The notes under the pieces were generated by a model. The model searched no databases. It was not told where the DNA came from and saw nothing but the letters and a program-made list of their open reading frames with translations. The position numbers and the translations under genes are program-made. From assembly GCA_003251455.1 (NCBI GenBank), contig QKFI01000093.1, positions 1-39,087 on the forward strand: DNA of 39,087 nucleotides, given 5' to 3'. This stretch comes from Tolumonas sp. (GTDB lineage Bacteria; Pseudomonadota; Gammaproteobacteria; Enterobacterales; Aeromonadaceae). This document shows, one piece after another, positions 16,615 to 22,219 of this stretch. Positions within the stretch are counted from its first letter, which is position 1. The number at the start of each line of letters is the position of its first letter.

Positions 16615-16690
16615 TGGCTCCCTCGACTGGACTCGAACCAGTGACATACGGATTAACAGTCCGCCGTTCTACCGACTGAACTACGAGGGA
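16615..16690 (-). tRNA. tRNA-Asn(GTT)
   Basis: 76 bp, encoded CCA, acceptor TCCCTCG/CGAGGGA, anticodon loop CTGTTAA. Confidence 0.97.
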
Positions 16691-16694
16691 AAAG

Positions 16695-16770
16695 TGGCTC
16701 CTCCTGCTGGACTTGAACCAGCGACATACGGATTAACAGTCCGCCGTTCTACCGACTGAACTAAGGAGGA
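16695..16770 (-). tRNA. tRNA-Asn(GTT)
   Basis: 76 bp, encoded CCA, acceptor TCCTCCT/AGGAGGA, anticodon loop CTGTTAA. Confidence 0.97.
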
Positions 16771-16788
16771 ATTAATTTGTCTAGATGA

Positions 16789-16864
16789 TGGCTCCTCCTG
16801 CTGGACTTGAACCAGCGACATACGGATTAACAGTCCGCCGTTCTACCGACTGAACTAAGGAGGA
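16789..16864 (-). tRNA. tRNA-Asn(GTT), identical to the 16695-16770 copy
   Basis: Same 76-bp sequence as preceding copy. Confidence 0.97.
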
Positions 16865-17000
16865 ATCGTTCTCATCTCGACGGGGCGCATGTTACTGATT
16901 GGTCTGGTGACTGTCAACTGATGAAACACCAAAATCAGACCATTTCATATCGTTTGCTGAATTGATAACCAGTTTGTATCAGTTTCAATCAGGGATGAGG

Positions 17001-17290
17001 TTATCAACAGGGAAGTCGATGCCAGTGATATCAAGGCCTGTAGCACGTTACCCACAGAATCTGTGGATAACCATGTGAATTATTTCCTCATATCTTGCTG
17101 AAAGCCGCATGCTGTAAGGATTTGAAAAAAGTATGATGAATATATTGCAAAAAAATATTATATAAAAATCAATAAGATATAAAAAATTGCTGCGAGAAGT
17201 GGTATTTGATATATCAGAAATACAAATTGAAAATAGGTCTACGGAAAATGTGCATTATTTTGGCGCATTCTCTAATGGAGCCGTGGATAA
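17001..17290. promoter_or_regulatory. DnaA-box cluster with AT-rich tract inside tRNA-Asn array
   Basis: TTATCAACA 17001-17009 (+), TTACCCACA 17048-17056 (+), TGTGGATAA 17062-17070 (perfect box, - strand), CGTGGATAA 17282-17290 (- strand); AT-rich 17120-17250. Confidence 0.6.
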
Positions 17291-17322
17291 CTTGAATCTT
17301 TGAGGGTGAAGCAGAAGAGATA

Positions 17323-17398
17323 TGGCTCCCCCGACTGGACTCGAACCAGTGACATACGGATTAACAGTCCGCCGTTCTACCGACTGAACTACGGGGGA
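17323..17398 (-). tRNA. tRNA-Asn(GTT)
   Basis: 76 bp, encoded CCA, acceptor TCCCCCG/CGGGGGA, anticodon loop CTGTTAA. Confidence 0.97.
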
Positions 17399-19618: not shown

Positions 19619-19648
19619 AAAAAACCGCCTATTGGCGGTTTTTTTATT
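19619..19648. terminator. Bidirectional terminator between uvrB and folE
   Basis: AAAACCGCC-TATT-GGCGGTTTTTTT. Confidence 0.85.
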
Positions 19649-20294
19649 GTTTACTTAAGAACTCATGGCGTGTGGCAGCATTCTTTTTAAAGTTACCGCC
19701 CAGTGCTGTTGTCGTGGTTTGACTGCTTGCATCCATGACGCCACGTGATTTTACACAATAATGTGTTGCGGTGATCGAGACTGCCACGTTCTCTGTGTCG
19801 AGCAGCGCCTGAAGGGCAACAAGGATCTGTTGTGTCAAACGTTCCTGCACCTGAGGGCGTTTCGCAAAGAAATTCACGATACGATTGATTTTTGAAAGAC
19901 CGATGATTTTATCTCTCGGAATGTACGCAACCGTTGCATAACCATCAATCGTCACGAAGTGATGTTCACAGGTACTGGTCACACCAATATCCTGTACCTT
20001 AATCATTTCGTCAGTTCCCATTTTGTTTTCAATCAACGTGATTTTTGGGAACGTTGCGTAATCAAGTCCAGAAAATATTTCGTTCACATACATTTTCGCA
20101 ATGCGGTGCGGCGTTTCAGCCAGACTGTCATCGTTCAGGTCTAAACCGAGTAATGACATGATTGCCGTCATGTGTTGTTCAATTTGCTCTTTCTTTTCCT
20201 GCGCAGTAAATGGTGTTTGCTGCATCGGTGTTTCTAATCCCCGGCTTTCCAGGGCAGAGCGGACTAGTACGGCTTCTTTACTTAGTTGGGTCAT
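19644..20294 (-). CDS. folE: GTP cyclohydrolase I
   Basis: 216 aa; [54 protein letters not shown]. Confidence 0.96.
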
Positions 20295-20503
20295 GCTGAA
20301 TATTACTCCTGCGCCATAAATGACATGATGTGACGCATATTTGCAGCCCTATTATACACATCAGATGCAACTTTGGACGAGTGGCATCTTCACGAATGCG
20401 TAATATGCGCAAGTATGTAAAAAGGTTTGCTTTGTTTTCAATGAAGGATTATGAAAAGTCAAATTTTTGGCGTATAATCAAAGTCTAAATTATAGACATC
20501 TAA

Positions 20504-20565
20504 TGCAATTTAGAAATGCAAAACTAATCAGAGTCATTTGCAAATTGCAAACAAATGCAATTTGC
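20504..20565 (+). promoter_or_regulatory. Candidate operator: perfect 10-bp inverted repeat plus an extra half-site
   Basis: GCAAATTGCA (20540-20549)-N6-TGCAATTTGC (20556-20565); half-site TGCAATTT at 20504-20511. Confidence 0.6.
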
Positions 20566-20601
20566 GAGAGAAAACATGAAAAGATGTGCTATAATTGCAT
20601 C

Positions 20602-20801
20602 ATTAAATTGATCAAGAATTCATCATGAAAAAATATTTTTGTATATATATCAAGCAAAAAGCTTGGAAATAATATTTTTTCAATAACGTGAAGAAATTGG
20701 CATATTTTTTTCATGTATAAAGATGTAAACCAGTTTTATCCCGTGCTCTCTTCAGCAAAAGCTGAAGTTCGGTCAACTACATTGTAGTTGACCTTTTTTT
20801 T
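20602..20801 (+). ncRNA. Putative orphan small RNA between folE and sbcB
   Basis: Extended -10 TGCTATAAT (20587-20595); hairpins CAAGC-AAAAA-GCTTG (20651-20665) and CTTCAGC-AAAA-GCTGAAG (20750-20767); terminator GGTCAACTAC-ATT-GTAGTTGACC-T8 (20771-20801); no + strand ORF of note. Confidence 0.65.
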
Positions 20802-20803
20802 AT

Positions 20804-22219
20804 CTATCTTCCTTGAAGATACAGCGCAAGCGAACGAATGATATTCCAGTCACGTGAGTCTTGCGGTTTGTCTTCCAGCAATCTTTCCAGTTGAAGTAAA
20901 TACGATTCAGCTTTCTGATTAAGTATATCCATACAATGGTGCTGCCACCGTTCTTGTTCTCTGGATGATAAGGTTTGAGGATAGTTTCTAGCTCGATAAC
21001 GGAAGAGCAGGGTTGGTAAACGTGGATCCTGGAACTGATAATTGATACCAGATAATTGTTCTGGTGTTGCTTGATGAATTAAATCAATGGCAGCGCGATC
21101 GGCTTCAGAGAAAAATCCTTGATACAGCATTTGTTCTGGTTCCTGATTCGCAGGCGGAATATATTCATCGCTAAAAATCCCAACCAGTTTTTCTCGTATT
21201 TCAGGGGTTTGTCTTAGAATCTGCAAATTATTCATGACAAGGTCACGGTTAATTCCTAATTCTTGCGCACGCTGATCACTTAAACTAGCCGCGGGTGCCA
21301 GAACCGGACATTTATTGATGTGAACCAGTTTCACCGGAACTCTTGTTTCTCCGCCCAAATCAGCATTGCTGGTATACAGTCGATCTCGCAGTGCATCGAC
21401 ATCAAGTTCAAGTAGTGGTGTCAAATCCTGATGCAGATCGACCACAATGACCGAATTATTGTTTGTTGGATGCCATGCCATGGGGGCGATCCAGGAAACA
21501 CAACCTTGCCAGGCCGAAAACATCCCTGAAACATGAACTAGTGGTTTGATATTAATAATATCGATCAGCTGTTTGAGTTTATTTTTATTCCGATGTTCAA
21601 ATAAGTATTCCATTAAACGGGGCTGTGCCTGCTTCAGGCATTTTGCAATTCCGATGGTTGCGTAGACATCAGCCATCGCATCATGGGCATTTTCATGCGA
21701 TATGCCGTTGGCAACTGATAGCTTTTCAAGACGGAAAGAGGGTTTGCCTTCCTCATCAAATACCCAATGAATGCCTTCAGGGCGCAGCGCATAAAAGGCT
21801 CTGACGACATCGAGCAAATCCCAGCGAGAGTTACCGTTTTGCCAGCTATACGCGTATGGATCTATAAAATTGCGGTAGAACCCGTAGCGGGTAAATTCAT
21901 CATCAAAACGAATATTGTTATAGCCAAGAATGCAAGTGCCGGGTGTCGAAAACAATTGATGAATGGTTTCGAAAAAATCGGCTTCGCAATACCCATTCTG
22001 ATTTGCGATTTGGGGTGTGATTCCAGTAATCAGGCAAGCTTCGGGTTCAGGTAGATAATCCGTCGCCATACGGCAGTACACAACGGTAGGATCACTACAG
22101 ATGTTGAAATCACTGTCAGTTCTTATGCCAGCAAATTGTGCTGGGCGATCTTTGGCTGGATTCGCACCAAAAGTCTCATAATCGTGGAATAAAAAAGAAT
22201 GCTGGACTGAAGTTCCCAA
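20804..22219 (-). CDS. sbcB: Exodeoxyribonuclease I
   Basis: 471 aa; FLFHDYETFGANPAKDRPAQFAGIRTD exonuclease motif, AHDAMADVYATIGIAKCL. Confidence 0.96.
   Translation of the reverse strand: MGTSVQHSFLFHDYETFGANPAKDRPAQFAGIRTDSDFNICSDPTVVYCRMATDYLPEPEACLITGITPQIANQNGYCEADFFETIHQLFSTPGTCILGYNNIRFDDEFTRYGFYRNFIDPYAYSWQNGNSRWDLLDVVRAFYALRPEGIHWVFDEEGKPSFRLEKLSVANGISHENAHDAMADVYATIGIAKCLKQAQPRLMEYLFEHRNKNKLKQLIDIINIKPLVHVSGMFSAWQGCVSWIAPMAWHPTNNNSVIVVDLHQDLTPLLELDVDALRDRLYTSNADLGGETRVPVKLVHINKCPVLAPAASLSDQRAQELGINRDLVMNNLQILRQTPEIREKLVGIFSDEYIPPANQEPEQMLYQGFFSEADRAAIDLIHQATPEQLSGINYQFQDPRLPTLLFRYRARNYPQTLSSREQERWQHHCMDILNQKAESYLLQLERLLEDKPQDSRDWNIIRSLALYLQGR

Follow-up and report, generated by a model that had tools for sequence, protein, structure and literature searches.

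The plus-strand terminator between folE and sbcB in Tolumonas sp. raises the question of what transcript it ends. In the window, that is, the whole stretch of 39,087 nucleotides that was analysed, folE (19644-20294; Pfam GTP_cyclohydroI) and sbcB (20804-22219; exonuclease I) flank the locus, and gene and domain calls confirmed that both are on the minus strand. The terminator, GGTCAACTAC-ATT-GTAGTTGACC-T8, is present at 20771-20801, as are the other elements from which the preliminary description had built an sRNA unit with its own operator: the perfect inverted repeat GCAAATTGCA (20540-20549)-N6-TGCAATTTGC (20556-20565), a third half-site TGCAATTT (20504-20511) lying 52 bp before the downstream dyad arm, and the extended -10 sequence TGC-TATAAT (20587-20595). 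The independent sRNA gene and the upstream operator stood up in our analysis, whereas the proposed promoter, the transcript length and a 15-aa peptide did not. Conservation, architecture, the context of luxO and kinase genes, co-occurrence and target complementarity are together best explained by an sRNA of the LuxO/sigma-54 class. Judged from sequence, the locus is very probably the gene for a trans-acting sRNA of about 77 nt, activated by LuxO~P and sigma-54, which would serve the LuxO pathway of Aeromonadales as its RNA output.

A DNA search of 61 related genomes found matches in 34, all of the same family, and showed that strong conservation covers about 20707-20801 rather than the 200 nt first proposed. 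Alignment of 26 distinct Aeromonadaceae sequences revealed an invariant seed, a hairpin, a terminator and a promoter block AGTTGGCA(C/T)...TTTCAT. The 19 seed bases were invariant in all 26, the flanking DNA diverged, and the ORF of the suggested peptide MKKYFCIYIKQKAWK was not conserved in the aligned relatives. Among 85,462 species genomes, an exact 19-mer of the core occurred at 56 loci, and the record titles of nearly all of them name Aeromonadales genera or families (Aeromonas, Tolumonas, Oceanimonas, Oceanisphaera, Zobellella, Succinivibrionaceae and other Aeromonadales MAGs); at two loosely titled MAG loci (uncultured proteobacterium, Gammaproteobacteria), the promoter and seed resembled those of the named relatives. 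With a covariance model applied to 296 genomes of the order, the sRNA was found across Aeromonadaceae and, in diverged form, in six genomes of a second family, which named records indicate to be Succinivibrionaceae. Almost every genome with the sRNA had a single copy; no copy was found in two fragmented assemblies (G001 and G007) or in viral contigs, and there was no match in E. coli. The model matches in G256, G114 and G057 were marginal. A match in a Vibrio genome (G224, L119) was rejected as spurious for lack of the seed, and a second BLAST match in the source genome (L002) was set aside since it shows no sRNA features.

The predicted sRNA extends from 20725 to 20801 on the plus strand, its end being given by the terminator. 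Its open 5' seed is UUUAUCCCGUGCUCUCUUC. The invariant stretch TTTATCCCGTGCTCTCTTC (20735-20753) comprises the single-stranded 5' part and the start of hairpin 1; within it, AUCCCGUG had an unpaired probability of 0.90 in the predicted fold. The seed core ATCCCGTG is retained in Succinivibrionaceae, and so is AUCCCGUG. Hairpin 1, CTTCAGC-AAAA-GCTGAAG (20750-20767), is replaced in Succinivibrionaceae by different complementary stems (GTGC/GCAC, CTTTCT/AGAAAG and CTTTCA/TGAAAG). The terminator stem carries a U-A to C-G double change that keeps the pairing in 6 of the 26 sequences, and in Succinivibrionaceae the stem sequences are wholly different and still form stems. The U8 tail would be compatible with Hfq-dependent action.

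The conserved promoter lies directly before this RNA. In the window it reads TTGGCATA-N4-TTTCAT (20697-20714, plus strand), with the -24 GG at 20699-20700 and the -12 C at 20712; in family members TTGGCAC(G)-N4-TTTCAT stands at a fixed distance from the sRNA. Compared with the sigma-54 consensus YTGGCACG-N4-TTGCW (PMC3352281), the family block departs at one -12 base, since Aeromonadaceae have TTTC or TTCC in place of the canonical TTGC. Several Succinivibrionaceae loci carry the canonical -12, and the distant homologues L115, L117 and L118 have textbook sigma-54 promoters (TTGGCACGCTGTTTGCT, TTGGCACACTCATTGCA and TTGGCACACATATTGCT); the promoter class is therefore settled as sigma-54 by comparison. 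By sequence, a sigma-54 -24/-12 element stands at the sRNA start, as in the LuxO/sigma-54 class of sRNAs, with the -12 off by one base in Aeromonadaceae. From the -12 position, the start of the sRNA is placed near 20725. The -24 element of the window, TTGGCATA, shows two further departures from consensus, and this copy of the promoter may be weak.

Upstream of the promoter, the two dyad arms fall within two putative LuxO boxes, for which the consensus is TTGCA-N3-TGCAA (PMC3352281, PMC11443567). Box 1, TTGCA-AAT-TGCAA (20538-20550), holds the left arm, matches the consensus exactly and is conserved in all Tolumonas loci. Box 2, ATGCA-ATT-TGCGA (20555-20567), holds the right arm, has 2 mismatches and is conserved elsewhere in Tolumonas as (G/A)CGCAATTTGCAA. 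The third half-site belongs to a degenerate third box (20503-20515), of which some other Tolumonas have a better version about 38 bp upstream of box 1. In 38 upstream regions, which are related, so that the boxes are not independent events, we counted 56 boxes when up to one mismatch was allowed, where shuffled sequences gave 2.0 on average and 8 at most; exact boxes numbered 29, compared with 0.14 on average in the shuffles. The boxes vary between genera in sequence, number and spacing, and are often paired at about 20 or 39-40 bp; in several loci, mostly of the Oceanimonas group, they fall below the stringent threshold. Predicted LuxO boxes, the second mark of the LuxO/sigma-54 class, are thus found at the locus. 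The dyad had been taken for an operator overlapping a -35; the conserved design is instead a far-upstream enhancer of LuxO boxes, about 155 bp before the -24.

The original proposal was a transcript of about 200 nt made from the sigma-70 -10 at 20590, in which the dyad would be the adjacent operator and the conserved 77 nt the 3' end. Right after the LuxO boxes, the -10 is conserved at the same place throughout Tolumonas as TGTGyTATAmT, and the 202-nt stretch is highly structured, folding better than 200 of 200 dinucleotide shuffles (z = -5.9). However, this -10 has no recognisable -35 and was not among the consensus promoter matches, the stretch 20600-20695 shows no conservation even between Tolumonas loci, in contrast to the sigma-54 element, which two families share, and outside the genus the box positions relative to the sRNA vary. 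We therefore consider the longer transcript an unlikely account of the locus and prefer the RNA of about 77 nt made from the sigma-54 promoter at 20697-20714. In Tolumonas the extended -10 may be a second, minor sigma-70 promoter, perhaps blocked by LuxO binding, whose transcript would end in the sRNA.

The LuxO protein itself is present in the source genome (NF041946, 660 bits, E = 1.3e-198), and its HTH keeps 9 of the 11 residues critical in V. cholerae. In the Oceanimonas group, the sRNA gene faces the 3' end of luxO-luxU; LuxO there also scores 660 bits against NF041946, and LuxU is recognised by its Hpt domain and a weak match to NF041948. In Aeromonas and in a further genus (g5), the sRNA gene faces the end of a pair encoding a FIST (NosP-like) protein and a hybrid kinase. 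The Tolumonas position between folE and sbcB has a counterpart in two g5 genomes, in which folE is also beside the sRNA gene, so the locus is common to Tolumonas and g5. In the source genome a FIST gene comes after luxO, and in Tolumonas G008 the FIST gene is itself followed by the gene for a hybrid kinase that has a REC domain and its own Hpt domain; these Tolumonas luxO regions are L073:3935-6492 and L072:6923-11474. The NosP model score was far below its cut-off. In V. cholerae, phosphate is exchanged between LuxU and the kinase VpsS, which NosP controls (PMC6769237). The Aeromonadales arrangement is similar in that a FIST/NosP-like gene and a hybrid kinase gene lie beside the sRNA or in the luxO operon. 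LuxO probably receives at least part of its input from such pairs. It differs in that the G008 kinase has its own Hpt domain, which may form a phosphorelay bypassing LuxU, so that LuxU may be unneeded; NO sensing in Aeromonadales is our own extrapolation.

Within Aeromonadales, the sRNA and LuxO co-occur. All 6 Succinivibrionaceae genomes with the sRNA have a strong LuxO (E<=1e-119), and two other genomes of the order, G012 and G038, have neither a true LuxO nor the sRNA. Outside the order LuxO does not predict the sRNA, as Vibrio and several families have LuxO-like proteins and no such sRNA. Five genomes of other families (G037, G041, G045, G048 and G053) had strong LuxO homologues, and neither an RF00378 Qrr nor the sRNA was found in them; these genomes may carry further LuxO-controlled sRNAs.

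Slightly less probable again than the sigma-70 transcript is the same sRNA under another sigma-54 activator with a LuxO-like recognition helix, of the SypG or NtrC type. Several LuxO-like activators do occur in some genomes. The binding site of NtrC differs from the LuxO box, which counts against an activator of the NtrC type. In Vibrio fischeri, qrr1 is activated by SypG, which apparently uses the same upstream sites (PMC10162802), but the adjacency of luxOU, the exact LuxO boxes and the joint absence of the sRNA and LuxO in G012 and G038 argue against such an activator and for LuxO. As the transcript is here a prediction from sequence, the locus might also be a conserved DNA element with no RNA product, such as a recombination or nucleoid site; but the promoter, seed, hairpin and T-tailed terminator always come in the same order and the stems change in sequence yet stay paired, which makes this hardly credible.

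An sRNA controlled by LuxO and sigma-54 invites comparison with Qrr (RF00378, Vibrionaceae). The two share a sigma-54 promoter, at least one LuxO box about 100-200 bp upstream and a single gene with its own terminator; the sRNA gene adjoins luxO in some genomes, as qrr1 does, and luxO is a probable feedback target. In the control genome G057, the layout of LuxO boxes and sigma-54 promoter at all four Qrr genes was the same as at the sRNA loci. The sRNA differs from Qrr in its length (77 nt compared with 93-111 nt in G057), in being single-copy in nearly every genome, in having two hairpins and in its different, invariant seed. The Qrr model gave no match in the window at E<=10 and none in 37 genomes of the family including the source genome, and 4 in G057. 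The Qrr core CUAGCCAACUGACGUUGUUAGUG, present in all 4 G057 Qrrs, is absent from the sRNA. By model and core sequence, then, the sRNA is not Qrr, although its predicted control logic is Qrr-like. The Rfam search of the locus gave nothing above the gathering score, and up to E 10 only chance-level matches, none of them Qrr. GlmY/GlmZ, CrcZ and NrsZ are also sRNAs under sigma-54 and an enhancer-binding activator; they have other activators and boxes, and the Aeromonadales sRNA has no Rfam match.

Predicted targets of the seed were ranked against 314 gene starts from 400 kb of one Tolumonas genome. In two Tolumonas genomes, the seed is predicted to form an uninterrupted duplex of 20 base pairs, two of which are G-U, over the ribosome-binding region in front of an MCP gene, at -34.8 kcal/mol compared with a best value of -22.5 among the 314 gene starts. 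The pairing is largely kept in the MCP orthologues (L256-L261), with -34.8, -30.4, -26.2, -25.7 and a weaker -19.0 kcal/mol; the gene was not found in several Tolumonas, including the incomplete source genome. Tolumonas luxO 5'UTRs keep GAGCAC, and in the source genome the luxO leader GAGCACG-ATAAA lies opposite UUUAU(CC)CGUGCUC of the sRNA, a site that resembles the one of Qrr feedback on luxO. luxO is probably a feedback target, weaker than MCP. Against the same 314 gene starts, however, the luxO pairing ranked 2 in the source genome and 17 and 69 in two other species, a signal only moderately above background. Beyond the MCP gene, a search for near-perfect target patterns yielded no site in a ribosome-binding region common to the genomes. 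Nor did litR, of the HapR/LuxR/LitR master regulators that Qrr represses by pairing, stand out as a conserved target, as Aeromonas litR 5'UTRs showed no clear match to the seed and no consistent pairing with it. No LuxR/HapR/LitR homologue was found at E<=1e-15 in Tolumonas (G001-G010) or the Oceanimonas group, despite their LuxO; the LuxR query matched the Vibrio control at 85% identity and is thus a valid probe.

From these features we infer the following mechanism. LuxO~P would bind the TTGCA-N3-TGCAA boxes (20538-20567) and, through DNA looping, activate the sigma-54 RNA polymerase at the -24/-12 element (20697-20714). Transcription would run from near 20725 to 20801, where the U8 terminator ends. 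With its seed UUUAUCCCGUGCUCUCUUC exposed, the sRNA would then pair, presumably with Hfq, with the ribosome-binding regions of target mRNAs, in Tolumonas the mRNA of the MCP chemotaxis receptor and probably, as feedback, that of luxO. More tentatively, though still with some preference, we propose that in Aeromonadales a separate sRNA family, non-homologous to Qrr or diverged beyond recognition, replaces Qrr as the LuxO output, with another seed and regulon (the chemotaxis receptor, luxO) and an NO-type sensor kinase beside it, the wiring having been kept and the RNA exchanged.

LuxO, LuxU and LitR have been listed in Aeromonas genomes, where gene content is the only guide to how LuxO acts, and these reports make no mention of Qrr (PMC5247445, PMC7512022, PMC2556355). 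The open-access literature searched does not mention such an sRNA in Aeromonas, and Rfam 15 has no family for it; relative to these sources, it is apparently undescribed so far. The sRNA is a concrete candidate for the missing LuxO link in Aeromonas, which includes fish and human pathogens, and in Succinivibrionaceae. If this is true, a quorum-sensing circuit can retain its activator and the logic of its promoter and yet rely on an unrelated RNA. Elsewhere in the window, four tRNA-Asn(GTT) genes form an array on the minus strand at 16615-17398, upstream of uvrB.
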